NCBI RefSeq assembly: GCF_000018605.1
Contig: NC_010003.1
Coordinates: forward strand, 658,501 to 722,500
From: Petrotoga mobilis SJ95
GTDB lineage: Bacteria > Thermotogota > Thermotogae > Petrotogales > Petrotogaceae
Direction of reading: 5' to 3'
Length of the DNA: 64,000 nt
The translations under genes and the position numbers were made by a program. Numbering within the stretch: position 1 is the stretch's first letter; each line of letters opens with the position of its first letter. Shown here in pieces: positions 10,288 to 38,710 of this stretch. Below the pieces are notes generated by a model, which worked only from the letters and a program-made list of their open reading frames with translations, had not been told where the DNA came from and did no database searches.

Positions 10288-10296
10288 TGGTATAAT
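10288..10296 (+). promoter_or_regulatory. frr: Extended -10 promoter upstream of frr
   Basis: TGGTATAAT (10288-10296) fits an extended -10 (TGnTATAAT) 36 bases before frr. No good -35 is present. The same TGGTATAAT occurs before both Rpn copies. Confidence 0.5.
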
Positions 10297-10331
10297 ATTT
10301 GCTGAATTAAATTTTATGCGGAGGTGAAGTC

Positions 10332-10895: not shown

Positions 10896-10897
10896 AT

Positions 10898-11635
10898 GTG
10901 GAAAATATAAGTATGAAACTTTCAAAAGTACCTGCCCATGTTGGTATAATTATGGATGGAAACGGAAGATGGGCAACTAAAAGTGGCTATGACAGAAACT
11001 ATGGACATCAAAGGGGTGCTGAAACTGCCCTCAAAGTTATTGAGTGGTCTAAAGAATTTGGAATTAATTATCTTACCTTATACACCTTTTCAGAAGAAAA
11101 TTGGAAGAGACCACAAAATGAAATAGAATTTTTATTTGATTTACTCATAAGATACTTTGAAGATAACCTTAAACGTATCATAGAAAATGGGGTAAATGTT
11201 AGATTTTTGGGAAGGATCAATAAACTGCCAGAAAGTCTCATAAAGACTTGTAAAGAAATCGAGGACATAAGTAAAAATAACAAAGATTTCAATTTGATCT
11301 TCGCCTTGAATTACAGTGGAAGACAAGAGATTGTAGATGCAGTAAATAAAATCTTGAAAGAAAAGAAGACAACAATAACAAAAGAAGATATTGACAGCAA
11401 CCTTTATTTACCAGATGTTCCTTATCCTGATTTAATAATAAGAACAGCAGGTGAAGAAAGACTAAGTAACTTCTTACTTTGGCAATCTGCTTATTCTGAA
11501 CTGTATTTTACAGAAACTCTATGGCCTGATTTTTCCTATGATGATTACTTCAACGCCCTTTTAGATTATTCTAAAAGAGAGAGACGATTCGGGGGTATAA
11601 GCAGTAAGTCTAAAGATATGGAGGAAAACCTTTGA
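10898..11635 (+). CDS. uppS: Isoprenyl transferase (undecaprenyl pyrophosphate synthase)
   Basis: Cis-prenyltransferase of 245 residues making the C55 lipid carrier for peptidoglycan and other envelope polymers. Signature motifs are GIIMDGNGRWA with the catalytic Asp, YGHQRGAE, TLYTFSEENWKRP, and near the C-terminus RTAGEERLSNFLLWQSAYSEL. A GTG start two bases after frr is given; ATG at the sixth codon (MKLSKVP) is an alternative. The gene overlaps cdsA by 4 bases, so translation is coupled. Confidence 0.95.
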   Translation: MENISMKLSKVPAHVGIIMDGNGRWATKSGYDRNYGHQRGAETALKVIEWSKEFGINYLTLYTFSEENWKRPQNEIEFLFDLLIRYFEDNLKRIIENGVNVRFLGRINKLPESLIKTCKEIEDISKNNKDFNLIFALNYSGRQEIVDAVNKILKEKKTTITKEDIDSNLYLPDVPYPDLIIRTAGEERLSNFLLWQSAYSELYFTETLWPDFSYDDYFNALLDYSKRERRFGGISSKSKDMEENL

Positions 11636-12477
11636 ATAAAAAAGAACTCTGGACAAGAGTAATATCAGGGGTAATTATTGGACCTATAGTTGTTTTTTCT
11701 TATTTAACGTATCCCACTCTTTTAGGATTGGTTACAACTATAGTGATGTTAGCTTCCTTTGAATTGATTGAACTATTTACAAGTGATGTCAAAAATAGTT
11801 TCATCAAGCTTTTGCTTACTTTTATTGTAGGAACATCCAGTCTTATATATGGATTCTCCTTGGAGGCTGAATATAGAGGAATTTTACCTTTTGAAAGTGA
11901 AGGAATATTTTTCTTAGCTTTCGTAGCGTCTGTATTTTCGATCATGCTCTTAGTTAAAGAAATAACGCACACAAAAAGGTTCATAGAATCTTCTGCATTA
12001 AGTATTATCTACGTATCTTTTTTCCTTTCAAACTTTTATTTGATTCATTTGAACTACGGACCAGGGATGGCGATTTTAGCATTAACTGCAGTATGGGCTT
12101 ATGACGCCGGTGCATATTTTTTTGGATTGAGTTTCGGTAAACATAAACTTTCTCCACATTTTTCACCAAAAAAAAGTTGGGAGGGATTATTAGGTGGCAT
12201 CTTTTTCACTTTTGCTTATATATTTATATTTGATTCCATTGGGGTTTTTTTTGGAAGCATTCAAAAAATAACTCTCTTGCAAACCCTTATCTTTGCATTG
12301 ATGGTGGGCTTTTTTGATACCATTGGAGATTTAACAGAATCAATTATTAAAAGATATTATAATGTAAAAGATTCTGGAGAAATTTTACCAGGTCATGGGG
12401 GAATGCTCGACAGAATTGATGGTTTGTTGATCGTAACCCCAATGTGGTATTTTTTGTTGAGAATACTGTGGATATAG
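11632..12477 (+). CDS. cdsA: Phosphatidate cytidylyltransferase
   Basis: Integral membrane enzyme of 281 residues that converts phosphatidic acid and CTP to CDP-diacylglycerol for phospholipid synthesis. It has about eight hydrophobic helices and the C-terminal CDP-DAG synthase signature (KRYYNVKDSGEILPGHGGMLDRIDG). TTG start overlapping the uppS stop, preceded by GGAGG. It is cotranscribed with frr and uppS. No dxr, which often follows, is present; a pilin gene follows instead. Confidence 0.94.
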   Translation: MNKKELWTRVISGVIIGPIVVFSYLTYPTLLGLVTTIVMLASFELIELFTSDVKNSFIKLLLTFIVGTSSLIYGFSLEAEYRGILPFESEGIFFLAFVASVFSIMLLVKEITHTKRFIESSALSIIYVSFFLSNFYLIHLNYGPGMAILALTAVWAYDAGAYFFGLSFGKHKLSPHFSPKKSWEGLLGGIFFTFAYIFIFDSIGVFFGSIQKITLLQTLIFALMVGFFDTIGDLTESIIKRYYNVKDSGEILPGHGGMLDRIDGLLIVTPMWYFLLRILWI

Positions 12478-12486
12478 GGGGCGAAA

Positions 12487-12882
12487 ATGAAAAAGACAAA
12501 ATTTAACGAAGGTTTCACAGTGGTTGAGGTTCTAATAGTATTGGGGATCATTTCGATTCTCGCTAGCATCGCCATCCCATCGATTACAGGACTTATCAAT
12601 CAAGCTAAAGCAACTAAAATAGTAACTGAAATGCAAAATGTTCAAGTCGCTGTAATGAACTATGGTATTTATAATTCAACCTTAAGTGGGTTGACGTTTG
12701 ATGCTCTCTTGTCAGATGGCTATTTAACATCTCAACCAGAAAATATAGACATAGATTCCTCTACCCCATTAGAAATCAGAATCGTATATGACGGTGACTC
12801 ACCTACCGCAACAGAGCTAAAAAAGATTAACAACAACATACTTATCGATAATGATACTGCCTATTTAGTAGTTAAATATTAA
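12487..12882 (+). CDS. Type IV pilin-like protein (class III prepilin leader)
   Basis: Short prepilin of 131 residues. The leader MKKTKFNEG is followed by FTVVEVLIVLGIISILASIAIPSI, which matches the prepilin peptidase site (cleavage after Gly9, N-methyl Phe, Glu at +5) and the hydrophobic N-terminal helix. The remaining ~100 residues form a small extracellular domain without recognisable family. It lies 9 bases after cdsA and is probably in the same transcript; other pilus-like genes lie 5 kb further on (17083-20084). Major or minor pilin cannot be decided. Confidence 0.8.
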   Translation: MKKTKFNEGFTVVEVLIVLGIISILASIAIPSITGLINQAKATKIVTEMQNVQVAVMNYGIYNSTLSGLTFDALLSDGYLTSQPENIDIDSSTPLEIRIVYDGDSPTATELKKINNNILIDNDTAYLVVKY

Positions 12883-12889
12883 AAGAATA

Positions 12890-12985
12890 GAAAGCAGACA
12901 CTTTAGTGAGGGTGGGAAACAGGGCAAAGGGTTACTGACAGAAGTTTTAGAGTTTTCAAAGAAAGAATAATTTGAAAAAAATTAG
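12890..12985 (+). other. GC-rich non-coding segment upstream of alaS
   Basis: A GC-rich patch (GTGAGGGTGGGAAACAGGG) in AT-rich surroundings, then AGTTTTAGAG. It shares AACAGGGCAA with the segment at 21339 and the AGTTTTAGAG word with segments at 37711 and 41597. Function unknown. Confidence 0.3.
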
Positions 12986-12997
12986 GAGGATTTCTAT

Positions 12998-15628
12998 ATG
13001 AAATATTTTACCTCTGAAGAAATCAGAGAAAATTTTTTGTATTTTTTCGAGAAAAAAGGGCATAAAAAGTTACCTAGTTCCTCATTAATTCCCAACGATC
13101 CTCAATTGTTGTTTACGGTGGCTGGAATGGTCCCTTTTAAACCAATATTTTGGGGAAAAGTTGAACCCACTTATACGAGAATCACTACATGTCAAAAATG
13201 TTTAAGAACGAACGATATAGAAAATGTTGGAAGGACCCCCAGGCATCATACTTTTTTTGAGATGTTGGGGAATTTTTCTTTTGGGGATTATTTCAAAAAA
13301 GAGGCTATAAAATGGGCTTGGGAATTTTTAACAGAAGAATTAGGACTTCCAGCAGAAAAATTATGGGCTTCCGTGTATGAAACCGATGACGAGGCTTTTA
13401 ATATCTGGAAAGATGATATCAAAATACCTGAAAATAAAATACTAAGATTCGGTAAAGAAGAAAACTGGTGGGGACCTGCAGGTCAAACCGGTCCATGTGG
13501 CCCATGCTCAGAAATATACTTTGATACAGGGTACACCGAAAACTGTCCAGACCAAGAAAATTGCACTCCTGCATGCGATTGTGGTCGTTTTGTCGAGATT
13601 TGGAACATAGTTTTCACTGAATATTATTCCGACGAAAACGGAAACCTATCCCCTTTACCAAGAAAAAACATTGATACCGGGGCGGGTTTTGAAAGAATCT
13701 GCGCAGTTACTCAAGGTAAATATGATAATTTTGACTCCGATCTATTCAAAGAAATAATAGAAGAAATACAACGAATCTTTGGTGTAAAATTCAGAGTAAA
13801 TAAAAGTAAAGATGTATCAATAAAAGTAATAGCAGATCACTCAAGGGCGATTGCCTTTCTAATATCTGAAGGGATTATACCATCAAATGAAGGAAGAGGC
13901 TATGTTTTAAGGAGATTAATAAGAAGGGCTGTAAGACATGGAGCTTTGTTGGAAGCAAAAGGCCCATTTTTAAGCAGTATCCTTGAAACAGTGATTAAAA
14001 AAATGGGAAAAATCTATCCTGAACTTATCGAAAAAGAAGCTTTAATCAAAGATATTTCCTTTATGGAAGAAGAAAAGTTTTTTGAAACTATGGAAAAAGG
14101 AATGGAAAGGTTAAACAATATAATTCAAAACTTAAACAACGAAACTACATTACCGGGGAAAATAGCCTTCGAACTTTACGATACATACGGATTTCCTTTG
14201 GACCTCACAAAAGAGATATTATCCGAAAAAGGGATAGAAGTTGATGAAAAAGAATTCACAGAACTGATGAACAAGCAAAGAGAGATGGCAAGATCAGCTT
14301 CGGGTAAAGTAGAATATGATACAGAAAAACAAATTTACAAAGAAATCGATAAATTTTTGACTCCAACTGAATTTATTGGTTATGATAAACTAAGTTCGAC
14401 AGAAGAAGTTCAGCTTATAATAAAAGGTAATAGTATTGTCCCACAAGCTCAAGAAGGTGACGAAATCGAACTCTTCTTCCCTAAAACGCCCTTTTATGCC
14501 GAAAGAGGAGGACAAGTCTCAGATAAGGGTGTTATCTACAATGAAACATTCGAAGCTGAAGTTATACATGTCAAACCTATAAGAAATGAGATAATATCTC
14601 ACCTCGTAAAAATAAAAAAAGGTAGTATAAAAAACGGAGAAAGAGTATTTCTAAAAGTTGATGAAAAAAAGCGAAAAGCTACAGAGAAAAACCATACAGC
14701 GACACATCTTTTGCATTCTGCATTAAGAAAAGTAATTGGAGAGCATATAAGGCAGGCTGGTTCATATGTAGCCCCAGAAAGATTAAGATTTGATTTCACA
14801 CATTATGAACCTTTGACCCAAGATCAAATAAAGCAAATCGAATACCTTATAAACGAACAAATACAAAAAGCTATCCCTGTTAACATATACCTAAAAAGCT
14901 TAGAAGAAGCAAAAAGTATGGATGTTATAGCCTTATTTGAAGAAAAATACGGAGAAGTGGTAAGAATTGTGGAAATAGACGACTTCTCAAGAGAGCTCTG
15001 TGGAGGCACGCATGTTTCCAACACAGGAGAAATAGGTCTCTTCAAAATTTTGGAAGAATCCTCTATTTCATCAGGAGTTAGAAGAATAGAAGCTATTACA
15101 GGTTTTGAAAGTCTTAATTATGCTACAGAATTGGAAAGTATTATGACTAATTTATCTAAAATGTTGGATTCATCAAGGGACCAGATACCTGATAAAATCG
15201 AAGGTATTCTAAAAACTATCAAAAATCAGGAAAAAGAAATTAAACAACTTCAATTTCAGTTGGCCACAAAAAATATAGAAAGATTAGCTGAAACTCCACA
15301 AATCATAGAAGGCGAAAAGGTGGTAGTAGCTCAGTTAGAAAACTTAGAAAAAGACGTTCATGCTAACACGGCCGATATCCTACTTCAAAAGTTAGGTAGA
15401 GGCGTTGTGATCCTTTTCAACAAGAGTAACAATGAGCAAGTAAGTTTGGTAGTAAAAGTATCAAAAGACACTTCTAAAAAGTTCCACGCCGGAAACATTG
15501 CAAGAAAAATAGCCTCCTATTTAGGTGGCGGTGGAGGCGGTGGACCAACTTTTGCACAAGCCGGCGGAAAATATGCTAATAAGGTGAAAGAAGTGATAGA
15601 ACACATAAATGATTTTATGGAGGTTTAA
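12998..15628 (+). CDS. alaS: Alanyl-tRNA synthetase
   Basis: Full-length AlaRS of 876 residues that charges tRNA-Ala. The N-terminal class II catalytic core opens with SEEIRENFLYFFEKKGHKKLPSSSLIP. The editing domain carries HTATHLLHSAL (~H566) and CGGTH (~C668), the zinc ligands of the deacylase site. The C-Ala domain ends in a glycine-rich GGGGGGGPTFAQAGG followed by a short tail. ATG start after AGGAGG at 12985. The downstream patatin gene begins 2 bases after the stop. Confidence 0.97.
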   Translation: MKYFTSEEIRENFLYFFEKKGHKKLPSSSLIPNDPQLLFTVAGMVPFKPIFWGKVEPTYTRITTCQKCLRTNDIENVGRTPRHHTFFEMLGNFSFGDYFKKEAIKWAWEFLTEELGLPAEKLWASVYETDDEAFNIWKDDIKIPENKILRFGKEENWWGPAGQTGPCGPCSEIYFDTGYTENCPDQENCTPACDCGRFVEIWNIVFTEYYSDENGNLSPLPRKNIDTGAGFERICAVTQGKYDNFDSDLFKEIIEEIQRIFGVKFRVNKSKDVSIKVIADHSRAIAFLISEGIIPSNEGRGYVLRRLIRRAVRHGALLEAKGPFLSSILETVIKKMGKIYPELIEKEALIKDISFMEEEKFFETMEKGMERLNNIIQNLNNETTLPGKIAFELYDTYGFPLDLTKEILSEKGIEVDEKEFTELMNKQREMARSASGKVEYDTEKQIYKEIDKFLTPTEFIGYDKLSSTEEVQLIIKGNSIVPQAQEGDEIELFFPKTPFYAERGGQVSDKGVIYNETFEAEVIHVKPIRNEIISHLVKIKKGSIKNGERVFLKVDEKKRKATEKNHTATHLLHSALRKVIGEHIRQAGSYVAPERLRFDFTHYEPLTQDQIKQIEYLINEQIQKAIPVNIYLKSLEEAKSMDVIALFEEKYGEVVRIVEIDDFSRELCGGTHVSNTGEIGLFKILEESSISSGVRRIEAITGFESLNYATELESIMTNLSKMLDSSRDQIPDKIEGILKTIKNQEKEIKQLQFQLATKNIERLAETPQIIEGEKVVVAQLENLEKDVHANTADILLQKLGRGVVILFNKSNNEQVSLVVKVSKDTSKKFHAGNIARKIASYLGGGGGGGPTFAQAGGKYANKVKEVIEHINDFMEV

Positions 15629-23097: not shown

Positions 23098-24234
23098 CTA
23101 TCCATTATTTTCTAGAAAAAGAACTTTTTGTCTCAACATCTCAAATTTGTTTCTTCCATACATTATCCTTTTAACAACTTTCAGTTTATTCACAGAACCT
23201 TCTGCTAGTCCATTGTTGTATTCATATATGATGGCATTTCTAACCGCTTGCATATCTCTTTTTAACCCATTTACAAATTTATCTATCTTTCTGATCTTTA
23301 GATTATTAGCTTTTTCTATCCATTCTTCAAGTTTTTCAACGTTCTTTGATTTCAACATCTGTTTGAATTCATTTACTAAGTTTATTATACTTTCAATAAC
23401 GGGGTATCTTTGAATGATCTTTTCATACAATTCTTTTGAAAGAGCTTCTACTTCTTCAACGGGTTTGTACAGTAATTTTATTAAATCTTTTCTTTTTACC
23501 CTTATTTCTTTTGGATCTTCAATTTTTAAATTTCTTTTTGCCAAATATATTCCAATGTTCGAATAACTACCTGTATAACCTTCACCTCTTATTATTTCAA
23601 ATATCTCTTTGTTTGATTTTCCGCTTCTTTTCAATACTTGCATTTCCTCTTTATATGGATCCAGCATACCTGGGAGCCTTTTTCCTTTGTTCATGTTTGT
23701 GGGAGAAAAATCATTATCTAAATATTTATCCACAGTATTTCTATGTATGTTCAGTAATTTTGATATTTTCCTTTTTGAGTAACCTTTGCTGTATAATTCC
23801 CTAACTTCTTTGACTAACTTAAGTTTTGCCTTTTCTTTTTCAGAATGAACCACGTTTTTGTTATCATCAACCATCTGTTCAAAGTCCTGATCTTTTGTTT
23901 CTCCAACAACTAAAGAGGTACTGAACTTTTGATAGATGTACTCTTTGCAAGAATCCGTTAGATTTTTTATTAAATGGAACCCATCCGATATCTGAATGGC
24001 ATCTGGATGGGCTTTCTCTATCGCCTTTTTATATGATATCGAACCGTCTCTTGATACCATTTGGATATTCTCGTATCCCTTTAGCCATTTTTCTACCTTT
24101 TCTGGTTCCCTTGAGTTCAACATATCCACCACTTTGTGAGTTTCCAAATCGATCATGATACTTCCATATCTTTGCCCTCTTTTTATTGCAAAATCATCGA
24201 TACTTACCTTTTTTACTTTCCTTTTGTCTATCAT
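23098..24234 (-). CDS. ISL3-family transposase, C-terminal part (DDE domain)
   Basis: 378 residues covering the ISL3 transposase catalytic core. VSIDDFAIKRGQRYGSIMIDL holds the first Asp and VSRDGSISYKKAI with the following ISDGFHLIKNL holds the second. The Glu lies near the end in NGLAEGSVNKLKVVKRIMYGR. An inserted HTH-like segment (SKGYSKRKISKLLNIHRNTVDKYL) lies in the middle. The frame is displaced by one base from the upstream N-terminal frame at a run of nine A residues on the coding strand (24243-24251). Active enzyme would need frameshifting, transcript slippage or a corrected run length. Confidence 0.85.
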   Translation of the reverse strand: MIDKRKVKKVSIDDFAIKRGQRYGSIMIDLETHKVVDMLNSREPEKVEKWLKGYENIQMVSRDGSISYKKAIEKAHPDAIQISDGFHLIKNLTDSCKEYIYQKFSTSLVVGETKDQDFEQMVDDNKNVVHSEKEKAKLKLVKEVRELYSKGYSKRKISKLLNIHRNTVDKYLDNDFSPTNMNKGKRLPGMLDPYKEEMQVLKRSGKSNKEIFEIIRGEGYTGSYSNIGIYLAKRNLKIEDPKEIRVKRKDLIKLLYKPVEEVEALSKELYEKIIQRYPVIESIINLVNEFKQMLKSKNVEKLEEWIEKANNLKIRKIDKFVNGLKRDMQAVRNAIIYEYNNGLAEGSVNKLKVVKRIMYGRNKFEMLRQKVLFLENNG

Positions 24235-24676
24235 GTGGATTATTTTTTTTTAATAAGTTGCATATCGAACTTTTTCCTATATCCGCTATATCTTTACTTA
24301 TCAACTTAGCTGCTTGTACAGAACTCATATTCATGCTTATATTCGTTATTTCCTTTTCCAGCCTTTTCGTTCTTTTGAATTTTGGTTCCACAAAGTCAAG
24401 AGGTTCAGCAAACGTCTTTTTCTTACACTCTTTGTTTTCACAGAACATCTTTCTTCTTATTACAACTATCGTTGTTTTTTTACCTTGTATCGGTAAATCT
24501 TGAAAGCTTCTTTCATACCTTGAATGTACTTTTTTGGATGGTTTCCCACAATATGGACAGATTACTTCTTTTTTAGCTGATTTCACCCAAATTGTTATTC
24601 TATCTCCTGTTACTTCATGTTTAACGTATTCTAAGTTCTCATCCAACAACTTAACTATTTCTTCCATTCCCCTCAT
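24194..24676 (-). CDS. ISL3-family transposase, N-terminal part (zinc-finger and HTH)
   Basis: 160 residues forming the ISL3 transposase N-terminus. A zinc-binding motif CPYCGKPSKKVHSRY is followed by CENKECKKKTFAEPLDF, then a helical segment leading to SSICNLLKK. The frame then leaves the family sequence (NNPHDRQKES), because the catalytic part continues one base out of phase after the A9 run. ATG start near the right inverted repeat. The second half is encoded by the adjoining gene. Confidence 0.85.
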   Translation of the reverse strand: MRGMEEIVKLLDENLEYVKHEVTGDRITIWVKSAKKEVICPYCGKPSKKVHSRYERSFQDLPIQGKKTTIVVIRRKMFCENKECKKKTFAEPLDFVEPKFKRTKRLEKEITNISMNMSSVQAAKLISKDIADIGKSSICNLLKKNNPHDRQKESKKGKYR

Positions 24677-25410: not shown

Positions 25411-25978
25411 AATTGATATTAGTTAGTTAATCAAATTAGTTGACATAATAATTATGACAAAATTTTATAAAACACCTACTAGAATAAAGTTGTGAAACAA
25501 TTAAAAATAAAAAGAGAAACATTGGATAGTTCATACAAAGGATGCAGAAAAAATATTAGATACTTAGTCTGAAAAGGTTAGATATAAAAAACCTACTACA
25601 AAGAAAAAGTAAGTAAATTCGACACCTATCTTTTAGATAACTTTTCGGGATAGAAAGTCGCAAAAAGATTTATAAAGGTTAAGTTCAAAGATAGTAGATT
25701 TGGCTAATTACATTTCATATCAAAAAAGAGCTGATATAAAAGTTAAGACAAATTAAATCACTGAATATAAAGAATAAAATTTGTAAATTAGGTGAAATTG
25801 TAGACAGAGAGATAAAAGAACTTAAGTAAAAAGACAGACAAAGTTTTGATATACGGAAGAAGATGATAATCATTCCTTAAATATTCTGTACCCAACAGAG
25901 AAAGCAAATTTGTAGAGTTACCAATAATATGGATAAAATTTAATAAATAATGATTAATTATGAAATGTGGTGATGCAA

Positions 25979-26722
25979 ATGATTCCTTATACTAGAAGAA
26001 AAATCATTTTAGAATTATTACATTCGAAAGAAATTGTGTATCTGGATGAGATTAAGAATAAAACCAATGTGTCAATAGCTACTGTTCGTAGAGATGTAAA
26101 GACTTTAGCTACAGAGGGGCAGGTTGAAATCTTATCTGGTGGGGCAGTCAAATTAGTTATTAATATTGCAGAGAAATCATTAGAAGAAAAGATAAATCTT
26201 AATAAAGAGGAAAAAGAAATTATAGGTAGATATGTAGCTACCTTAGTTGGTGATGGACAGTTTATTTTTATAGGTCCAGGTACGACTGAAAATCACATCA
26301 TCAAACATTTAAAAGGTAAAAATGTAACAGTTGTTACAAACGGAGCTTTTCATATCACTGAGTTTATAAAATATAAAATAAATTCTATATTATTAGGGGG
26401 TAATTTGTTGACAGACATTGCAGTTCTTGTAGGACCTACTGCAATGAATCAAGTTGCAAACATGAATTTTGATAAGTGCTTTATCGGTGCCTCAGGTATT
26501 ACCTTTGACCGTGGTGTATCAACTTCAAATATCGAAGTAGCTGAGATAAATAGACTGGTAATTGAGAGATCAGAAGAAGTGTATTTTATTGGAGATTCTA
26601 CGAAACTTGGTAAAAACTCAAGATATACATTTGCTCAAATAAATGAGGAGCAAAAGTTAATCACTACTAAAAAAGCACATGTGAAAGCATCATATGCCAA
26701 AGAAGTTATTTTGATTGATTAA
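25979..26722 (+). CDS. DeoR-family transcriptional regulator
   Basis: Regulator of about 247 residues. The N-terminal DeoR HTH (PYTRRKIILELLHSKEIVYL, then NVSIATVRRDVKTLATEG) is followed by a DeoRC sensor domain that binds phosphosugars (ERSEEVYFIGDSTKLGKNS, near the C-terminus the GDSTKLG motif). I prefer ATG 25979, with GGTGA 5 bases upstream, although GTG codons at 25967 and 25970 are in frame. It heads the sugar island and is separated from the operon by a terminator, so it probably represses the promoter at 26970-27000 and responds to a phosphorylated pentose intermediate; this is inference. Confidence 0.9.
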   Translation: MIPYTRRKIILELLHSKEIVYLDEIKNKTNVSIATVRRDVKTLATEGQVEILSGGAVKLVINIAEKSLEEKINLNKEEKEIIGRYVATLVGDGQFIFIGPGTTENHIIKHLKGKNVTVVTNGAFHITEFIKYKINSILLGGNLLTDIAVLVGPTAMNQVANMNFDKCFIGASGITFDRGVSTSNIEVAEINRLVIERSEEVYFIGDSTKLGKNSRYTFAQINEEQKLITTKKAHVKASYAKEVILID

Positions 26723-27061: not shown

Positions 27062-28126
27062 ATGAAAAGATGGCTTGGGGTTTTTTTATCAGTTGTATTG
27101 GTGTTTTTAGCGTCTGTCGTTATAGCAGAAGATGTAAAGATTCCTGAAGCAATTGAAGGGAAAAAGTTAAGAATGGCCTTAGTAAAAGAGTGGGGAACAG
27201 GAACACATATGATTATGCATATCAATGGAACTAGAGCAGAAGCTGAAAGATATGGTATAGACCTTAGTGTGATTGATGCTAACAATAATCTTGCAAAAAT
27301 GGCAGAAGGCATAGACAATGCTGTAGTAAATAAGATGGATGCAATTTTAATTTCACATGGTAAAGCGCCTGCTTTGCATGATGCAGTTGTAAGGGCTTTA
27401 AAAGCTGGTATACCTGTGATTGTTTTTGATAATGACTTTGATATTCCTTATGAAATTCACCAAGGAAAATTGGTTTCTATTGATCAGTATGACTTAATGA
27501 TGGGTTTGCTTTCACAGATGTCTTTGGTTCAAGAATTAGATGGTAGTGGAAATGTTGTTTATAATAGAGTTGCTAATGTACCTCCAACAGAAAAAAGACA
27601 TAGAATCTGGCAGGGAGCCATTTTACCCACATATCCAGGTATAAAGGTTGTCGCGACAATTGATCAAGGTACAAATAATCCAATGCCTAAAGCACAGGCG
27701 GCTCTTGAAACAATTTTAACAACAAGAAATGACATTGATGCTGTCTATGCAGTTTGGGATGAATATGCTAAAGGATTTTATAACGCAATACTTGCCTCGG
27801 GAAAAAAGATTCCATTATATTCTGTTGATATTTCTGATCAGGATTTAGCCATGATGCAGGAACACCCTGAAATTTGGAGATCATCTGCTGCCGTTGACCC
27901 CACAGTTGTTGGTCAAGTCCAAATTCGCTTGGCTTTAAAAGCAATAGCAGGTGAAAAGATTCCTAGGTATTACTCCTTAGAACCTGTACTGATTCATGTT
28001 AATGATTTACCACCAAAAGAAGAAAAACGGGTGACAATGGCAGATTTAGCTGATTATTACGATAATTGGGGCTATACTGAAGCTTTTCTGGAAGACTGGA
28101 TGATAGCTTTAGAAAAGAGTTTTTAA
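27062..28126 (+). CDS. Ribose-type sugar ABC transporter, periplasmic binding protein
   Basis: Secreted binding protein of 354 residues, type I periplasmic fold (Peripla_BP_4). The signal peptide is MKRWLGVFLSVVLVFLASVVIAE, with cleavage probably after the AE region. The fold is visible in LRMALVKEWGTGTHMIMHI, NKMDAILISHGKAPALHDAV, GIPVIVFDNDFD and the hinge region DIDAVYAVWDEYAKGFYNAI. ATG start after AAAGGAGAGAG. It is the first gene of the operon behind the tandem-operator promoter and is followed by a large palindrome. The ligand is unknown; the downstream enzymes suggest methylthioribose or 5-deoxyribose. Confidence 0.9.
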   Translation: MKRWLGVFLSVVLVFLASVVIAEDVKIPEAIEGKKLRMALVKEWGTGTHMIMHINGTRAEAERYGIDLSVIDANNNLAKMAEGIDNAVVNKMDAILISHGKAPALHDAVVRALKAGIPVIVFDNDFDIPYEIHQGKLVSIDQYDLMMGLLSQMSLVQELDGSGNVVYNRVANVPPTEKRHRIWQGAILPTYPGIKVVATIDQGTNNPMPKAQAALETILTTRNDIDAVYAVWDEYAKGFYNAILASGKKIPLYSVDISDQDLAMMQEHPEIWRSSAAVDPTVVGQVQIRLALKAIAGEKIPRYYSLEPVLIHVNDLPPKEEKRVTMADLADYYDNWGYTEAFLEDWMIALEKSF

Positions 28127-28137
28127 GTAAGGCAAAA

Positions 28138-28171
28138 TTAAAGTTTGTTGGTTTAAACCAACAAACTTTAA
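28138..28171. terminator. Perfect 17-bp-arm palindrome between binding-protein and ATPase genes
   Basis: Arms 28138-28154 and 28155-28171 are fully complementary around GTTTAAAC, followed by TTATTATTAAT. Such hairpins in ABC operons attenuate read-through or protect the upstream mRNA so that binding protein exceeds the membrane parts. The tail is not a clean U run. Confidence 0.7.
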
Positions 28172-28223
28172 TTATTATTAATATAATAATACTAAAAGTT
28201 TATTTAACATAAGGGGGTGATTA

Positions 28224-29723
28224 ATGATGCTGGCAATGAAAAATATAACAAAGTCTTTCCCTGGTGTAAAAGCACTGGAAAATGTGGATTTTAATGTAGA
28301 ATCAGGTGAAGTACACGCACTGATAGGGGCCAATGGTGCTGGTAAAAGTACGTTAATGAAAATATTAGCAGGTACTTACGAGGATTATGGAGGCGAAATA
28401 CTGATTAATAATAATAAGGTAGAAATTAAGAATCCTATTGATGCAAAACGCAACGGAATTGTTATTGTATATCAGGAAGTAGATACAGCTCTAATCCCAC
28501 ATTTAACTGTTGCTGAAAATATCATGATGGATTACATTATTGAGGGGAAAAATGGCGTTTTAATTAACTGGAATGATATTAAAAAACGTGCAAAGAGAGT
28601 CATTTCTGAACTTGGTTTAGATATAAATGTGAACCAAAAAATTAATGAACTATCTCTTTCTGAAAAACAAATGGTTTTAATTGCGCGAGCTATTTTCCAT
28701 GAAGCTAGGTATCTAATTTTAGATGAGCCGACTGCCCCTTTAAGTGTTGAGGAAACAAATAAATTATTTGATATCCTAAGAAAGTTAAAAAATGATGGTA
28801 TGAGTGTTATTTTTATATCTCATAGATTAAACGAAGTGTTTCAAATGGCCGAAAAAATTACAGTGCTAAGGGATGGGAAGATTGTGGGAACATTCGATAT
28901 AGATGATATGACTATTGATAAAGCTGTTGAAAAAATGTTAGGTAAGAAATTAGAAAATAATTACCCAAAAACAGAAACTAAAATTGGTGACACACTATTG
29001 GAAGTTAAGAATTTATCAGGTACTGGTGGAATTAACAACGTAAGTTTAACTGTAAGAGAGGGAGAAATAATTGGTCTGGCAGGCCTAGTAGGAGCTGGAA
29101 AAACAGAGTTATGCAAACTAATATTTGGTGAAGGGAAAATAAAAGAAGGTGAAATAAGATTAAAGGGTAAAAGAATAAACCCGAAAGCTCCTGCTGAAGC
29201 CGTTAGAGAGGGTTTAGTATTAGTTCCTGAAGAAAGAAGGAAAGAAGGAGTTTTAGTATATGAGTCTATAGAAACCAATATTACCTTGCCAACTCTGGAG
29301 AAATATTGTCGAGGCATTTTTATGCAAAAAAACAAAATTAAGCAAGTTTCAAGAGAAATTATCAAACAGGTTGGAATCAAAACACCTAGTGAAAAACAAT
29401 TGGTAGCCAATTTAAGTGGGGGTAACCAACAAAAGGTTGCTACTGGTAAGTGGTTTTTATCTGATGCTGAAGTATTTATCTTTGATGAACTTACTAAAGG
29501 TGTTGACGTAGGATCTAAGGTAGAAATTTATGAGTTAATTGGGGACCTTGTTCAAGATGGTAAAGGTGTTATTTATGCATCTTGCGAATTTGGTGAGATA
29601 TTAGGATTAACTGATAGAATTTATGTAATGTATAACGGTACAGTAGTAAAAGAATTAGTAACAAAAGATACTACAGAAGAAGAATTACTTTACTACGCTG
29701 CTGGAGGTGGACTAGATGAATAA
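28224..29723 (+). CDS. Ribose-type sugar ABC transporter, double ATP-binding protein
   Basis: Fused ATPase of 499 residues with two nucleotide-binding domains (RbsA/MglA type). The N-terminal domain has Walker A GANGAGKST, signature LSLSEKQM and Walker B LILDEPTAPLS. The C-terminal domain has GLVGAGKTEL, LSGGNQQK and VFIFDELTKGVDVG. As is usual in this family, the second Walker A is atypical. ATG start after AAGGGGGTGA. It overlaps the permease gene by 8 bases. It works with the neighbouring binding protein and permease to import a sugar. Confidence 0.94.
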   Translation: MMLAMKNITKSFPGVKALENVDFNVESGEVHALIGANGAGKSTLMKILAGTYEDYGGEILINNNKVEIKNPIDAKRNGIVIVYQEVDTALIPHLTVAENIMMDYIIEGKNGVLINWNDIKKRAKRVISELGLDINVNQKINELSLSEKQMVLIARAIFHEARYLILDEPTAPLSVEETNKLFDILRKLKNDGMSVIFISHRLNEVFQMAEKITVLRDGKIVGTFDIDDMTIDKAVEKMLGKKLENNYPKTETKIGDTLLEVKNLSGTGGINNVSLTVREGEIIGLAGLVGAGKTELCKLIFGEGKIKEGEIRLKGKRINPKAPAEAVREGLVLVPEERRKEGVLVYESIETNITLPTLEKYCRGIFMQKNKIKQVSREIIKQVGIKTPSEKQLVANLSGGNQQKVATGKWFLSDAEVFIFDELTKGVDVGSKVEIYELIGDLVQDGKGVIYASCEFGEILGLTDRIYVMYNGTVVKELVTKDTTEEELLYYAAGGGLDE

Positions 29724-30714
29724 TACAAAAGAAAAAAAATTTGACTTATTTTTATTTTTATACAAATATGGAACAATTATTGTTATAGTAGCAACAATAC
29801 TTTTTTTTTCAATTACTCTTGATAATTTCCTGAACTTTACTAACGTAACAAACATTTTAAGATCTATATCTATTGTTGCTTTAATCGCATTAGCTGTTAC
29901 TATATCTCTTACCATCAATGGATTTGATTTATCTGTAGGAGCTATTGCTGGTTTCGCTTCTGTTATAGCAGCAAAAATTATGGTAATTTGGGGAATGGGT
30001 CCTGTGCCAGCTATTATTGTTCCCTTGATTGTCGGTGCATTAATAGGTGCAATTAATGCCTTTTTGATAATAAAAATGAAAATCCCAGATTTGCTTACAA
30101 CCCTTTCCATGATGTTTCTTTTAACAGGAATATCCATAACCTTTCAAAGTGGATCAGCAATCTATAATTATATGCCTTTACCTAATAACGCTGGTATAGC
30201 GCCAGGAATTATGAGCGAAGCTTACTTGTTTATCGGCCGAGGGGAATTATTTCACATTCCAGTTCCTGTTATTATTATGCTTTCTGTGGTTATCCTGGTA
30301 CATATATTCTTGAATCTAACTAAATATGGCAGATTCTTATATATGATAGGTGGAAATGAAGAGGCTGCCAGATTATCGGGGATTAATACTAACAAATATA
30401 AATTAATCGCCTATATGTTGTCTGGTTTAATTGCAGCTTTAGGTGGACTTGTATTAGGTGCTAGATTAGGATCTGGAGAGGTTGACGCAGGAAGTCCGTA
30501 TTTAATGGACGCAGTAGCTGCTGCCTACATTGGGTTTTCAGTATTTGGTGCCGGAAAACCTAATGCTTTTGGAACATTATTGGGAGCATTATTAATGGGA
30601 ACTCTTTTAAATGGGCTAATTATGATGGATTTCCCTTATTATTCTCAGGATATTGTAAAAGGTATTGTTTTAATTCTTGCCTTGACTCTTACTTATTATA
30701 GGCAAAAGAAGTAA
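29716..30714 (+). CDS. Ribose-type sugar ABC transporter, permease
   Basis: Membrane permease of 332 residues (BPD_transp_2/RbsC family), with 8-10 hydrophobic segments. It has the family loop NGFDLSVGAIAGFASVIAA, the cytoplasmic coupling segment GGNEEAARLSGINTNKYKL and the C-terminal ALLMGTLLNGLIMM. Translation is coupled to the ATPase gene by an 8-base overlap. One permease gene suggests a homodimer. Confidence 0.94.
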   Translation: MNNTKEKKFDLFLFLYKYGTIIVIVATILFFSITLDNFLNFTNVTNILRSISIVALIALAVTISLTINGFDLSVGAIAGFASVIAAKIMVIWGMGPVPAIIVPLIVGALIGAINAFLIIKMKIPDLLTTLSMMFLLTGISITFQSGSAIYNYMPLPNNAGIAPGIMSEAYLFIGRGELFHIPVPVIIMLSVVILVHIFLNLTKYGRFLYMIGGNEEAARLSGINTNKYKLIAYMLSGLIAALGGLVLGARLGSGEVDAGSPYLMDAVAAAYIGFSVFGAGKPNAFGTLLGALLMGTLLNGLIMMDFPYYSQDIVKGIVLILALTLTYYRQKK

Positions 30715-30780: not shown

Positions 30781-30912
30781 AAGATTCTATGTAACTTAGA
30801 ATGATGTAGGTATTTTAAAATTTTTTAGATTCTAGAAGTGTGGTTTAAAGAAGGTTTCAAAGTTGCTAAAGATTGTAAAATCATAATAATTGAGGAGGTT
30901 AGAATAATAGTT

Positions 30913-31956
30913 ATGACCGTTGTTCCTGTTAAACTTAACGAACTAAAAAACAAATTAGTTATCATTGATCAAACTTTGTTGCCCAATGAGGAAAAATTTT
31001 TAGAATTAGATAATCCTGAAGAAATTTGGGAAGCAATTAAGAAGCTAAGAGTCAGAGGGGCTCCCGCCATTGGTATTGCTGCTGCCTTTGGCCTTTACGT
31101 CTCTACTTTAAAGTCCAAAGCTGCAAATGTAGCTCAATTTAAAAAAGAATTTGAAGAAGTCAGGGATTATTTTGCGACCTCAAGACCTACCGCTGTGAAC
31201 TTGTTTTGGGCCTTAAAAAGAATGACCCGAAGGTTTGAACAAGAAGAAGATAAGACTGTTGATAAAATTAAACAAGCATTGCTTGATGAAAGTGAAAAAA
31301 TATTTGCAGAAGATCAGGAAATGAGCAAAGCCATTGGTAAACACGGCTTGTCGTTATTGAAACCAGGTATGGGGCTTTTAACGCACTGTAATGCTGGGGG
31401 TTTGGCTTCATCAGGTTATGGAACTGCTTTAGCTCCAATATATTTAGGCCATGAAAAGGGTTATAATTTTAAAGTATATGCTGATGAAACAAGACCCTTA
31501 TTACAAGGGGCCAGACTTACTACATATGAATTATACAAAGCTGGAATAGATGTAACTTTAATCTGTGATGATATGGCTTCTTTGGTTATGAAAGAAGGTA
31601 AGATTGACGCAGTACTTGTTGGTTGTGATCGAGTAGCAGCTAATGGAGACACAGCCAATAAAATAGGAACTTCTGGACTAGCCGTATTGGCTAAAGAATA
31701 TGGTATACCAATGTACATTCTTGGACCTACTTCTACGATTGACTTAGATGCTTCTACAGGTGAGGATATTAAAATTGAACTCCGTGATGAAGAAGAAGTT
31801 GTTAACGGATTTGGTAGACGAACTGCCCTTAAAGGGGTAAAAGCTTACAATCCTGCTTTTGATGTTACTGATGCTAAATATATTACAGCAATCATTACTG
31901 AAAAGGGTATTGTTATGCAACCATATAAAGAAAGTTTGAAAAAGTTATTTGAATAA
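30913..31956 (+). CDS. mtnA: S-methyl-5-thioribose-1-phosphate isomerase-type aldose-ketose isomerase
   Basis: MtnA/eIF2B-like enzyme of 347 residues from the ATG at 30913. It isomerises 5-methylthioribose-1-phosphate (or 5-deoxyribose-1-phosphate) to the ribulose form. Motifs seen are IKKLRVRGAPAIGIAAAFG, THCNAGGLA with the catalytic Cys, DETRPLLQGARLT and VGCDRVAANGDTANKIGT with the catalytic Asp. The frame is open upstream to 30838, but the only ribosome site (AGGAGG, 30893-30898) lies 14 bases before the ATG; in-frame ATA codons sit at 30904 and 30907. It is followed by a binding-protein homologue, MtnK and an aldolase, so the operon processes a thio- or deoxypentose. Confidence 0.9.
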   Translation: MTVVPVKLNELKNKLVIIDQTLLPNEEKFLELDNPEEIWEAIKKLRVRGAPAIGIAAAFGLYVSTLKSKAANVAQFKKEFEEVRDYFATSRPTAVNLFWALKRMTRRFEQEEDKTVDKIKQALLDESEKIFAEDQEMSKAIGKHGLSLLKPGMGLLTHCNAGGLASSGYGTALAPIYLGHEKGYNFKVYADETRPLLQGARLTTYELYKAGIDVTLICDDMASLVMKEGKIDAVLVGCDRVAANGDTANKIGTSGLAVLAKEYGIPMYILGPTSTIDLDASTGEDIKIELRDEEEVVNGFGRRTALKGVKAYNPAFDVTDAKYITAIITEKGIVMQPYKESLKKLFE

Positions 31957-31997: not shown

Positions 31998-33125
31998 ATG
32001 GAGAAACAACTAAAAGTATTAGCTGTTGGTGATCCGGCTGTCTATGTCTATGTGGATGATAAATACAACTTTCTAAAGGAGTTTACTAAAGAGACGGGTG
32101 TTAAGATTTATTTTGATATAGTAAAATGGGTAGATTACTATCCTACCTTAATTAATTCTTTTCGTGAGTATAAGTATGACATAGTTATGGTTGCTGGACA
32201 TTTATGGGTTAGTGAACTTGTAGAGAAAGGTAATCTACTAGAGTTAAGTAGGAATTTTGGATTAGATTATGATTATGAGGATATCATACCTTCTATTCGC
32301 GAGGAAATAGAGTACAATAAAAAAAAGTATTTGCTTCCATCTTTTTGTGATGGCCATCTCTTATTTTACAGAAAATCAGAGATTAAGGAAAACCTGGCTG
32401 AGAGAATAACAATTGATGAGTTAATCAAGATTGTTGAGAACAATACTGATAATCAGAAAAACACTTTTGTTTTAAAAGCTCATCCCTCAGAAATATTTTT
32501 AGATTTGTTACCATACTTACGTAATGAAGGAATAGATGCCTTTGATAATGATGGTAACCCCCTTTTTGATAATCAAAAAGGGTATTCTGCTCTCCAAAAG
32601 TATATTTATATGAAACAATATTCTCCGAAGAATGTAGATGAATTTGGTAATGAAGAAGTATTAAACGCAATTCAAAAAGATAAATGCAAATTGGGTGTTT
32701 CCTGGAGTGGTCAGCTTGGACAAATTATGAATGACCAGTGTATTAATCCAGAGGATATAGGTTTTATTTCATTAGAAACTTCCTGGAATACAACTTGGTC
32801 TTTTGGAATAAACCATTTATGTCAAGATCAGTTTTTAGCTGAAAGATTTTTGCAGTTTATAACATCTAAAGAGGTAGACAAAGCAGTAGGTGCTTATTGT
32901 GGTAATCCTACGCGCAATTCAAGTTTTGAAGAGGAGAAAGAAAAATACAGATGGTATCCAGTACTACAAAATATGCTTGAAAGGTCAAAACCTCTACCTC
33001 ATTTGACAGTTACAGGACAATTAATAAGTATTACCACTAAAGAAATTGTTAAGGCTTTTAGACATATAATTAGTCCTCAGGAAGCTTTGAGAAATGCTGC
33101 CAATATAATCAGGGAGGTTGTTTAA
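31998..33125 (+). CDS. Family 1 extracellular solute-binding-protein homologue without signal peptide
   Basis: Protein of 375 residues with the type II periplasmic binding fold (SBP_bac_1). The first domain opens LKVLAVGDPAVYVYVDDKYNF, continuing FTKETGVKIYFDIVKW, YDIVMVAGHLWVSELVEKG, and YLLPSFCDGHLLFYRKSEI; the tail is ITTKEIVKAFRHIISPQEAL. No signal peptide or lipobox is present: the ATG start follows GGGGAGTG, and the frame upstream to the stop at 31962 contains no hydrophobic stretch. It probably stays in the cytoplasm, between mtnA and mtnK in one transcript. It might bind or sense an intermediate. Function unknown; family firm. Confidence 0.8.
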   Translation: MEKQLKVLAVGDPAVYVYVDDKYNFLKEFTKETGVKIYFDIVKWVDYYPTLINSFREYKYDIVMVAGHLWVSELVEKGNLLELSRNFGLDYDYEDIIPSIREEIEYNKKKYLLPSFCDGHLLFYRKSEIKENLAERITIDELIKIVENNTDNQKNTFVLKAHPSEIFLDLLPYLRNEGIDAFDNDGNPLFDNQKGYSALQKYIYMKQYSPKNVDEFGNEEVLNAIQKDKCKLGVSWSGQLGQIMNDQCINPEDIGFISLETSWNTTWSFGINHLCQDQFLAERFLQFITSKEVDKAVGAYCGNPTRNSSFEEEKEKYRWYPVLQNMLERSKPLPHLTVTGQLISITTKEIVKAFRHIISPQEALRNAANIIREVV

Positions 33126-34343
33126 ATGGGGAACTATAAACCATTAACAAAACGGGAAGCTATCGAATACGTTAAACAGGTGCAAGGAATATTTTCTGAT
33201 AATGCTGATTTAGAATGTGAAGAAATTGGAGATGGTAATCTTAATTTGGTTTTTCATATTTGTGACAAGAACTCAGATCAGAGTATAATTATAAAACAAG
33301 CACTGGATCATGTTAGAATTGTTGAAAGTTGGCCATTAACAAAAGAACGGGTCAGGTTCGAATATAAAGCCATGGATATTCAGGATAAGCTTACTAATGG
33401 AATGGTTCCAAAGGTATATAAATTTGATGAAGAACTGGCTTTAATTGTAATGGAAGATTTAAGTGATATGACTGTAATGCGCAAGGGGTTAATAGCAGGG
33501 GAAAAGTACCCACATTTTGCTGATCAAATATCCACCTTTTTAAGTAAAACTATCTTTTACACCTCCGATTTATATCTGGATCCTAAGGAGAAAAAGGAAA
33601 AAGTAAAAGAATTTATTAACCCAGAGTTATGTAAAATAACTGAGGATTTGGTTTTTACTGATCCTTATTATGATGCAGAGACTAATAATATTAATCCAGA
33701 ATTACGCCCCTATTTGGAAAACGAATTTTGGAAAAAGAATGAGTTGCGTAAGGAAGTAACAATCTTAAAAGAGAAGTTTATGACCAAAGCTCAATCTTTA
33801 ATTCATGGTGACTTACATACTGGTTCTATTTTTATTAACCAGGAAGCTATAAAGGTTTTTGATGCTGAATTTGCGTTCTATGGTCCAAGTGGGTTTGACA
33901 TTGGCGCAGTGATTGGTAATTTAATTTTAAACTATGCCTCCTGGACAGGCAAAAAGGTATCAAGAGAATTTAAAAATGATTATAGGAATTATTTACTGGA
34001 AACAATTAAAAATATCTGGAATGAATTCGAAATGAAATTTAGAAGTTTTTGGGATAAAGATGCTCATGAAGTAATTAAAGCAGTGGATGGCTACCAGGAT
34101 GCTTATTTAACACAATTATTACAGGACAGTATTGGAATGGGCGGCTGTAAAACAATGAGAAGGTGTATTGGATTAGCTCACGTTGAAGATCTTGATGGTA
34201 TTGAAGATTTAAAGAAAAGGGCTGAAGCCCAAATCTTTGCTCTTAAGATAGGCGAAGCAATGGTAATTCGAAGGAAAAAACTTAATAGCATTGAAGATTT
34301 TATTAAAATAGTCCAAAAAATAACAAATCAGGAAGATGCTTAA
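33126..34343 (+). CDS. mtnK: S-methyl-5-thioribose kinase (MtnK family)
   Basis: Choline-kinase-fold sugar kinase of 405 residues that phosphorylates 5-methylthioribose at C1 with ATP. Motifs are GDGNLNLVFHI at the P-loop-like strand, IVMEDLSDM in the hinge, HGDLHTGSIFIN (near residue 226, catalytic Asp) and the metal-binding DAEFAFYGPSGFDIGA. Length and motifs match MtnK. ATG start directly follows the upstream stop. In characterised DHAP-shunt pathways the same kinase also accepts 5-deoxyribose. Together with MtnA and the aldolase it forms a full pathway. Confidence 0.92.
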   Translation: MGNYKPLTKREAIEYVKQVQGIFSDNADLECEEIGDGNLNLVFHICDKNSDQSIIIKQALDHVRIVESWPLTKERVRFEYKAMDIQDKLTNGMVPKVYKFDEELALIVMEDLSDMTVMRKGLIAGEKYPHFADQISTFLSKTIFYTSDLYLDPKEKKEKVKEFINPELCKITEDLVFTDPYYDAETNNINPELRPYLENEFWKKNELRKEVTILKEKFMTKAQSLIHGDLHTGSIFINQEAIKVFDAEFAFYGPSGFDIGAVIGNLILNYASWTGKKVSREFKNDYRNYLLETIKNIWNEFEMKFRSFWDKDAHEVIKAVDGYQDAYLTQLLQDSIGMGGCKTMRRCIGLAHVEDLDGIEDLKKRAEAQIFALKIGEAMVIRRKKLNSIEDFIKIVQKITNQEDA

Positions 34344-36116: not shown

Positions 36117-37379
36117 TCAGGTTACTATTTCTCTTTTCCTTTTTAATTTTTTTGCTGTATAATTGCCATGAGCTCTCAGTTCTTGATTTTGTAATTTGTA
36201 ATGATAGTCAGAATCATATTTTTTCCCACTCTTTACCAGTGAATATATTATTCTCAACAATTTTCCCGCTACGGCTAACACAGCAACAGTATGTGATTTA
36301 CCTCGAGTACGTAGTTTCATGTAATAATTCTTGAAGTATTCATTGTTTTGAATAGCAACGATGGCAGCGATGTAAACAGCTTTTCTTAGGTATCTGTTAC
36401 CTTTTCTATTGATGAACCAGCCTTTTTTCATTTGACCTGATTCCTCTGTACGAGGATCGATGCCAACGAAAGCCACCAGGGCAGAAGCAGAATAGAATCG
36501 GTTAATATCTCCTGTTTCTGCTACAATATTTAAAGCTGTTTCATTGAAACCATCAAGAGATTGTATTAATTCTACCTGGTTTTTAATTACATCGTTTGAT
36601 GAATTGTTCAAAGTTTCTTTCAATTTTTCTTTGAAGAGCTTTTGATCTGATTCAAGTTTGAACAACAATTCTATTCTTTTTTGAAGAGCTAACTCATGCG
36701 CATCGTTGCCACTTGCTATTGAATTTTTAGAAAGTTCAATGATTTGGTCCAACTTATTTTCATCGAAATACAATTGATTATCTATCTTCATCGCATCAAT
36801 AAGCTGTTTTTTGTTGGTTGTAGCGATCTTCCTTGCAGAAGGGAAGTTATACAATAAATTCATTAAACTCTTGATAAAGATATTAGATTGAAAAGATTCC
36901 AATTCAGGGAACAAAAGGTAGACATAACGTTTGATTTCATTCTTAACCCTTGAAATCTCCTCAGAAAGGTTAATGATCTCGCGAGAGTATTGAGTGAAAT
37001 TATCTATCTCCTTAGAAGAAGGGATGTTGTCTGGATACTTTTCTTTCAGCCAAATGGAGATCAGCTTGGAATCAATGTTGTCGTTTTTAGAATGGCGAAG
37101 AGTTTCACTTTTTCTGAATTCTTTCAACAAAAGGGGATTAATGATATGGACATCATAATCGTGTTTAAGTAAATAAGAAAACAAATGTTGATGGTAAATA
37201 GAAGTGGATTCCATACCAATTATAATCTCTCTTTTGTTGAACTTTTTAAGAATTTTGTCGAAAGTGGTGAAACCACTCATATTCTGTTTGAATTTACCAC
37301 TATCGATTTTGGTCCTACCTGAATCGGAGATGTAGTAATGAAAAGAGTTTTTAGAAATATCAATACCTACAAAATACAT
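36117..37379 (-). CDS. IS110-family transposase (intact)
   Basis: Full-length DEDD recombinase of 420 residues. The RuvC-like domain opens YFVGIDISKNSFHYYISD, with a later Glu in IIGMESTSIYH and HSKNDNIDSKLISIWL (D-x-x-D). A coiled-coil region follows. The C-terminal domain has VAETGDINRFYSASALVAFVGIDPR, SGQMKKGWFINRKGNRYLRKA and the serine-bearing segment RGKSHTVAVLAVAGKLL. IS110 elements lack inverted repeats and use a bridge RNA from a non-coding end. Element limits are not defined here. A structured sequence lies 5' of the gene at 37483-37550. Confidence 0.9.
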   Translation of the reverse strand: MYFVGIDISKNSFHYYISDSGRTKIDSGKFKQNMSGFTTFDKILKKFNKREIIIGMESTSIYHQHLFSYLLKHDYDVHIINPLLLKEFRKSETLRHSKNDNIDSKLISIWLKEKYPDNIPSSKEIDNFTQYSREIINLSEEISRVKNEIKRYVYLLFPELESFQSNIFIKSLMNLLYNFPSARKIATTNKKQLIDAMKIDNQLYFDENKLDQIIELSKNSIASGNDAHELALQKRIELLFKLESDQKLFKEKLKETLNNSSNDVIKNQVELIQSLDGFNETALNIVAETGDINRFYSASALVAFVGIDPRTEESGQMKKGWFINRKGNRYLRKAVYIAAIVAIQNNEYFKNYYMKLRTRGKSHTVAVLAVAGKLLRIIYSLVKSGKKYDSDYHYKLQNQELRAHGNYTAKKLKRKREIVT

Positions 37380-37771: not shown

Positions 37772-38710
37772 ATGCCTTACGTAAATACAAAGGATATTTT
37801 AGAAAAGGCGAATAAGGAATACTATGCGGTTGCAGCTTTCAACATTAACAATCTTGAGTTTCTCCAGGCTATAGTTGAAGGAGGGATAGAGAAAAAATCT
37901 CCTCTGATAATCGAAACAAGTGAAGGGGCAATGAAGTATGCTGGCATGGGTGATCCTTTGAGAGGAGCAAGCCTGTTTGTAAAAATGGTTAGAGAGTTTG
38001 CAGATTCTTTAGATATACCAATCGCTCTGCATTTAGACCACGGGAAGAATTTTAAATATATAATATCCGCAATTAAAGCTGGTTATTCATCTGTAATGAT
38101 AGATGCATCTGATAAACCATTGGAAGAAAATCTAAAAGCTACGAAAGATATTGTAAGAATAGCCCATGCAGCAGGTGTTTCAGTGGAAGCAGAATTAGGA
38201 AAGTTAGCTGGAATAGAAGACAACGTTGCTTCAGCTGAATCTGTTCTAGTTAATCCCGATGAGGCGAAATATTTTGTAGAGGAAACCCAAGTTGATTTTC
38301 TAGCTCCGGCTATTGGCACTTCCCATGGAGCATTTAAGTTTAAAGGAGAAGCTAAATTAGACTTTGATAGATTGAAAAAAGTTAAAGAATTGACAAAAAT
38401 GCCTTTGGTACTACACGGTGCTTCAAGTGTTGTGCAAGAAATGGTCGAAATAGCTGAAAATTATGGAGCTGATTTCGGAGGATCAAAAGGTGTACCCTCA
38501 GATATATTGAAAGAAACCGTTCGATTAGGTATAAATAAAGTAAATACAGATACTGACCTTAGGATGGCTTTTATTGCAGGATTAAGAGAATTCTTGCAGA
38601 ACAATCCCAAAGAGTTTGATCCTAGAAAATACATGGAAACGGCAAAGTCTTATGTGAAAAAGGTTGTTTCAGATAGATTGGAGCTTTTAGGTTCTGCTAA
38701 TAAAGCTTAA
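37772..38710 (+). CDS. fba: Fructose-1,6-bisphosphate aldolase, class II
   Basis: Class II (zinc) FBP aldolase of 312 residues that joins DHAP and glyceraldehyde-3-phosphate in glycolysis and gluconeogenesis. Seen are AAFNINNLEFLQAIVEGG, ALHLDHGKNFKYI with zinc ligands, SVEAELGKLAGIED, VDFLAPAIGTSHGAFKF and LVLHGASSV. ATG start after AGGAGG. It is transcribed with its own terminator and stands upstream of ackA. It would use DHAP released by the nearby deoxypentose operon, but the two are separate units. Confidence 0.95.
   Translation: MPYVNTKDILEKANKEYYAVAAFNINNLEFLQAIVEGGIEKKSPLIIETSEGAMKYAGMGDPLRGASLFVKMVREFADSLDIPIALHLDHGKNFKYIISAIKAGYSSVMIDASDKPLEENLKATKDIVRIAHAAGVSVEAELGKLAGIEDNVASAESVLVNPDEAKYFVEETQVDFLAPAIGTSHGAFKFKGEAKLDFDRLKKVKELTKMPLVLHGASSVVQEMVEIAENYGADFGGSKGVPSDILKETVRLGINKVNTDTDLRMAFIAGLREFLQNNPKEFDPRKYMETAKSYVKKVVSDRLELLGSANKA

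Follow-up and report, generated by a model that had tools for sequence, protein, structure and literature searches.

A possible cytoplasmic enzyme or metabolite carrier derived from a solute-binding protein in methylthioribose/5-deoxyribose operons with and without microcompartments

Introduction

What does a sugar-binding protein do inside the cell, encoded between two enzymes of methylthioribose metabolism? The question is raised by one gene in a 64,000-nucleotide stretch of Petrotoga mobilis SJ95 (contig NC_010003.1, positions 658,501 to 722,500; hereafter the window), which lies between mtnA and mtnK and encodes a homologue of the SBP_bac_1 solute-binding proteins (SBPs). We use the name cSBP for leaderless cytoplasmic SBP_bac_1 homologues. 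Two known systems bear on the question. Three reports (PMC6079011, PMC10986504, PMC12632272) describe 5-deoxyribose salvage, or the DHAP shunt, as the conversion of 5-deoxyribose or methylthioribose to DHAP and an aldehyde by a kinase, an isomerase and a class II aldolase. The CoAT microcompartment (BMC) of Clostridium indolis has been described as having no known key enzyme (PMC4149025).

Methods

The first seeds were sequences from Acetoanaerobium noterae (41%), obtained in a search of a plasmid collection, and from G009 (30%), obtained from genomes of the window's relatives. A profile built from the alignment of the window sequence with these two was scanned over 84,980 species, and G486, a Bacillota genome, was added from a genome sample. 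The G486 sequence is not part of the profile, and its score is hence independent, whereas the score of G009 for the family is circular because its sequence belongs to the profile. The tree of cSBPs and secreted SBPs left out G486.

Results

The ORF list of the window gives cSBP as a protein of 375 amino acids with an ATG start. The Pfam model SBP_bac_1 (PF01547) matches its residues 23-293 (8.2e-19, 69.2 bits against a cut-off of 26), and a search with NCBIfam profiles matched no model. The N-terminus reads MEKQLKVLAVGDPAVY, with strand 1 of the fold beginning straight away. No hydrophobic stretch was found in the 11 in-frame codons upstream (krettgsvrkl), and a leader concealed by a frameshift is excluded, because the mtnA stop (31956) lies only 41 bases from the start. 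Neither a signal peptide nor a lipobox was found in the window protein or its 28 relatives, in-frame upstream sequence included. Judged by its missing leader, the cSBP of the window is cytoplasmic by design.

An AlphaFold2 model of the window protein (pLDDT 94.1, pTM 0.91) has the two lobes of a type II SBP over the entire chain, and its structural matches are sugar SBPs. It aligned with 5iai along the whole chain (368 residues, VIA Z 42.4, rmsd 2.3), and no fold other than that of SBPs was found among the ranked PDB matches listed for it. Profile match, upstream codons and model agree with the preliminary description, which had claimed a complete SBP_bac_1 fold with no leader, lipobox or hydrophobic sequence upstream; its placement of a binding-protein fold inside the cell is borne out by the leaderless N-terminus in all 29 members.

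The operon runs, entirely on the + strand, in the order DeoR regulator, RbsB-like protein, RbsA, RbsC, MtnA, cSBP, MtnK and class II aldolase (Table 1), and the ATG of mtnK adjoins the stop codon of cSBP with no base between them. As the preliminary description had stated, the operon already has a normal secreted binding protein of another fold: the RbsB-like protein carries an ordinary signal peptide (MKRWLGVFLSVVLVFLASVVIA) and is a Peripla_BP_4 match. The hairpin that follows its gene is a possible attenuator, perhaps lifting expression of the binding protein above that of the ATPase. The permease of the operon is of the RbsC type, unlike MalF/MalG. Comparison with the G486 orthologue indicates that the true start of MtnA is probably the ATG at 30913. 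The aldolase has no C-terminal tail of the kind found on microcompartment versions. MtnK, MtnA and a class II aldolase co-occur, as in the DHAP shunt and 5-deoxyribose salvage, and from these predicted enzymes the pathway appears better termed a DHAP shunt than methionine salvage. Genes named by eye as transposase-like flank the operon, upstream at 23098-24676, where the gene is split into two overlapping frames, and downstream at 36117-37379, where it is IS110-like. Beyond the latter, at 37772-38710, lies a class II fructose-bisphosphate-type aldolase, and the gene after it resembles acetate kinase.

Table 1. Features of the cSBP operon in window coordinates.
Feature	Coordinates	Strand	Evidence
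DeoR-family regulator, opens cluster	25967..26722	+	PF00455 3.8e-42, HTH_DeoR; 78% identity to first gene of G486 operon
RbsB-like secreted binding protein, type I fold	27062..28126	+	Peripla_BP_4 PF13407 3.8e-30; hydrophobic N-terminus
17-bp hairpin separating rbsB and rbsA	28136..28173	+	terminator-like scan
RbsA-like ABC ATPase	28224..29723	+	ABC_tran 8.4e-56
RbsC-like permease, BPD_transp_2	29716..30714	+	PF02653 1.1e-39
MtnA, methylthioribose-1-phosphate isomerase	30838..31956	+	TIGR00512 8.9e-128, 426 bits, above cut-off
Leaderless cytoplasmic SBP_bac_1 homologue (cSBP)	31998..33125	+	PF01547; leaderless in 29/29 members; AlphaFold2 model
MtnK, methylthioribose kinase	33126..34343	+	TIGR01767 1.5e-166, 554 bits, above cut-off
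Class II aldolase, 215 aa	34361..35008	+	PF00596 7.5e-55; NF005302 above cut-off

We found 28 relatives of cSBP in three bacterial groups, 27-65% identical to the window copy and all leaderless. The scan of 84,980 species contributed 25 further loci from Bacillota and Spirochaetota (34-46% identity), and the G486 protein is the one at 65%. In the window, 26 loci and G486 the protein reaches a variant of KVLAVxDPAV no more than a few residues from its start; the start of the G009 protein is more divergent and likewise leaderless. The cSBPs form one clade apart from the secreted SBPs (support 100/100, with a warning from the tree program of long branches), and on the family profile secreted SBPs reach 133 bits at most, while G486 scores about 472 bits. 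The family is rare: among 103 genomes of the window's phylum it occurs in the window genome and G009 only. In a sample of 398 Bacillota genomes it occurs in two, both among the 20 with mtnK, a co-occurrence that is weak alone because there are just these two carriers and one of them is the seed.

At least 28 of the 29 sequences (window and 28 relatives) are identical at 52 alignment positions, which include D12, H68, D118-G119-H120, K160, E165, D169, W236, Q239, W267 and R306. At 29 of the 52, H68, D118-G119-H120, K160, E165, D169 and G238-Q239 among them, the residue is absent from five secreted relatives. Placed by secondary structure and alignment, the near-invariant residues would sit at strand ends facing the expected ligand cleft, and lobe-interface motifs that are almost invariant across such distances are consistent with a single conserved ligand.

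Both mtnK and mtnA accompany cSBP in every locus with a long enough contig (22/22: 20 homologous loci, the window and G486), nearly always together with rbsABC and an aldolase; the suggestion that they might be fixed neighbours of the gene thus held in every relative that could be judged. The rbsA and rbsC genes are present in every locus whose contig extends to them, and the short G009 contig reads MtnA, RbsA, RbsC, cSBP, RbsB. A search for MalF/MalG-type (BPD_transp_1) permeases near 26 cSBP copies (L025, L038-L062) gave no match, while control loci gave matches. Thus cSBP lacks the marks of an ABC-importer binding protein, having no leader or lipobox and, within these loci, no adjacent MalF/MalG-type permease.

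The G486 operon (L095, G486:C10:32000-51500, positions 3744-14410) has the gene order of the window and is followed by an aldehyde:ferredoxin oxidoreductase and another, different class II aldolase. The six neighbouring genes are 75-83% identical to those of the window and cSBP itself is 65% identical, and two operons so nearly identical suggest horizontal transfer between phyla. Comparison among loci showed that the window's RbsA/RbsC, MtnA and cSBP resemble those of Bacillota microcompartment loci; its MtnK is like that of G009 (60%), and its aldolase belongs to a non-microcompartment type (53% to L037, compared with about 33%). The gene for cSBP is kept although the aldolase and the means of aldehyde disposal vary. 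Most Bacillota have shell proteins, ALDH and PduL, G486 has aldehyde:ferredoxin oxidoreductase, the spirochaete MAG L048 has a DeoC/LacD aldolase, and the window has a short aldolase. The DeoC/LacD gene of L048 (9096-9992) lies directly upstream of cSBP; in Alkalispirochaeta L056 (7876-9971) a RuBisCO-like protein and a regulator with a sugar-binding domain are found upstream of it.

The main home of the cSBP family is a microcompartment locus, which the preliminary description had missed. In 21 of the 26 homologous loci pduL lies just upstream of cSBP; ALDH, shell genes, two CoA-transferase genes and an NADH oxidase-like gene are usually present as well. A CoAT-type microcompartment locus was seen to adjoin MtnK-MtnA in L025, L038, L040-L042, L044, L045, L047, L050, L052, L053, L055 and L058-L062, with RbsABC also beside it wherever the contig extends so far. 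These CoAT-type loci probably fall within the PVM-like loci of Axen et al. (PMC4207490). The adjacency of RbsABC-MtnK-MtnA in most loci yields a predicted substrate, suggesting that the CoAT microcompartment acts on 5-deoxyribose or methylthioribose; our literature search found no publication joining "microcompartment" with two pathway terms. Shell genes (PF00936) were sought and not found in the window's genome, which has no locus of the CoAT/PVM-like kind seen at most homologous loci, and none was found in L048. The idea of a microcompartment-specific protein is weakened, since both of these keep cSBP. In the window, G486 and spirochaete operons no microcompartment is linked to the gene, so it is the methylthioribose/5-deoxyribose (DHAP-shunt) pathway that cSBP partners.

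Related operons without cSBP set bounds on its importance. It is missing from eight RbsABC-MtnK-MtnA loci of related genomes (L029-L036) and from the Bacillota loci L100 and L108, which are aerobic methionine-salvage operons with related transporters, and we therefore reject the view of cSBP as a simple companion of RbsABC-MtnK-MtnA. L104 and L105 have DeoR, RbsA/RbsC, MtnK, MtnA and a class II aldolase and lack cSBP; these DHAP-shunt-like operons dispose of the idea that every DHAP shunt with an importer needs the protein, which is thus an accessory rather than a requirement. In L032 and L033, MtnK-MtnA-RbsABC are followed by genes named by eye as two transketolase-like halves, a RuBisCO-like protein and a SorC-type regulator, with neither cSBP nor a class II aldolase; these operons are possibly another methylthioribose route.

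Discussion

We are highly confident that cSBP is cytoplasmic and dedicated to its pathway. In the route that we envisage, RbsABC would import 5-methylthioribose or 5-deoxyribose (or the sugar would be recycled), MtnK would phosphorylate it, MtnA would isomerise the product, and the aldolase would cleave it to DHAP and an aldehyde. The lobes of cSBP may close like a venus flytrap on one cytosolic metabolite of this route, conceivably the free sugar, its 1-phosphate or the ribulose 1-phosphate. Once closed, the protein would buffer, present or report that metabolite instead of passing it to a permease. The preliminary description had proposed sensing, sequestration or channelling as candidate roles. 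That the proteins are a conserved cytoplasmic family serving 5-methylthioribose/5-deoxyribose breakdown by such non-catalytic ligand binding is a reading we hold with about even confidence.

The ionisable invariants H68, H120, K160 and E165, missing from the nearest secreted SBPs compared, could equally be catalytic. Since enzymes derived from SBPs are documented, among them cyclohexadienyl dehydratase (PMC7683729), we take seriously, as the leading though somewhat doubtful alternative, that cSBP is itself such an enzyme, for instance one that acts ahead of MtnK to interconvert anomers or isomers of the imported deoxysugar, or one that works on a later intermediate. The family-specific ionisable residues (H68, D118, H120, K160, E165 and D169) would suit it, thiaminase I (4kys) is a weak match of the family profile (5.8e-4), and cSBP remains one separate gene while the enzymes downstream are exchanged. 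One published 5-deoxyribose cluster includes a fucose-mutarotase homologue (PMC6079011), which makes an auxiliary protein for sugar forms plausible. However, the kinase-isomerase-aldolase route has no missing step, D118 has D or E counterparts in ordinary sugar SBPs in PDB alignments, no catalytic motif was identified, and L104 and L105 manage without cSBP. Regulation from the cytoplasm, with cSBP acting on the DeoR repressor or, through inducer exclusion or trans-inhibition, on the RbsABC importer, would fit the constant company of rbsA and rbsC; it is unlikely, given that RbsABC-MtnK-MtnA operons commonly lack cSBP, closely related ones from methionine-salvage loci (L108) among them, and that regulator types vary from locus to locus.

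The microcompartment setting invites the thought that cSBP is cargo or a shell-associated protein, as pduL, ALDH and shell genes attend it in 21/26 homologous loci and the gene is listed within the CoAT BMC (PMC4149025). Yet it has no terminal extension like the aldolase tail, since no more than about 8 residues precede strand 1, and both the window genome, which lacks shell genes, and L048, where none was found, keep it; we consider this role improbable. It is scarcely credible that cSBP is an ordinary secreted SBP whose leader was lost in this lineage. Descent from secreted sugar SBPs is clear, but the 28 of 28 leaderless relatives form one clade, frames are intact in three groups, and mtnA is close upstream. 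A homologue with a signal peptide at the same locus, named in the preliminary description as what would point to simple loss, occurs in none of the 28. We reject the lost-leader or pseudogene explanation: because all relatives are leaderless, cSBP did not merely shed its leader.

We tentatively suggest that an SBP was converted to a cytoplasmic role in the methylthioribose/5-deoxyribose pathway, either as an enzyme or as a metabolite carrier, and is a hitherto unrecognised component that crosses phyla with and without a microcompartment. It presents a clear case of a transport binding protein relocated to the cytoplasm and tied to one catabolic pathway, and would extend the DHAP shunt by one component. 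The annotation "ABC sugar-transport component" is misleading for the cSBP clade and is corrected here, and the enigmatic CoAT microcompartment gains a predicted substrate.

The published 5-deoxyribose salvage and DHAP shunt clusters, as given in the excerpted text, share the kinase, isomerase and class II aldolase, some with transporter genes, and no SBP_bac_1 component was found in those descriptions (PMC6079011, PMC10986504, PMC12632272). K401DRAFT_4961, entered as "SBP_bac_8, ABC-type sugar transporter" in Table 11 for the CoAT BMC (PMC4149025), lies between eutN/pduL and an NAD(FAD)-dependent dehydrogenase, neighbours as in Lacrimispora L045, L049, L052 and L055, and is very probably a cSBP orthologue; the excerpted report gives it an ABC sugar-transport label only, without discussing leader loss, a link to mtnK/mtnA or a role, and unlike it the window copy stands without BMC genes. 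A literature search for cytosolic solute-binding proteins returned nothing relevant. SBP-derived enzymes such as cyclohexadienyl dehydratase set a precedent for the fold leaving transport; that enzyme belongs, unlike cSBP, to the amino-acid-binding branch, and the likeness is one of fold history (PMC7683729). With the secreted sugar SBPs (MalE3 6dtq, 5ci5, 4rya, SmoF 7ofy and 5iai) cSBP shares its whole-length fold, closed two-lobe architecture and sequence relationship, and it differs from them in having no signal peptide or lipobox and no nearby MalF/MalG-type permease, in forming a separate clade, and in possessing invariant residues of its own.
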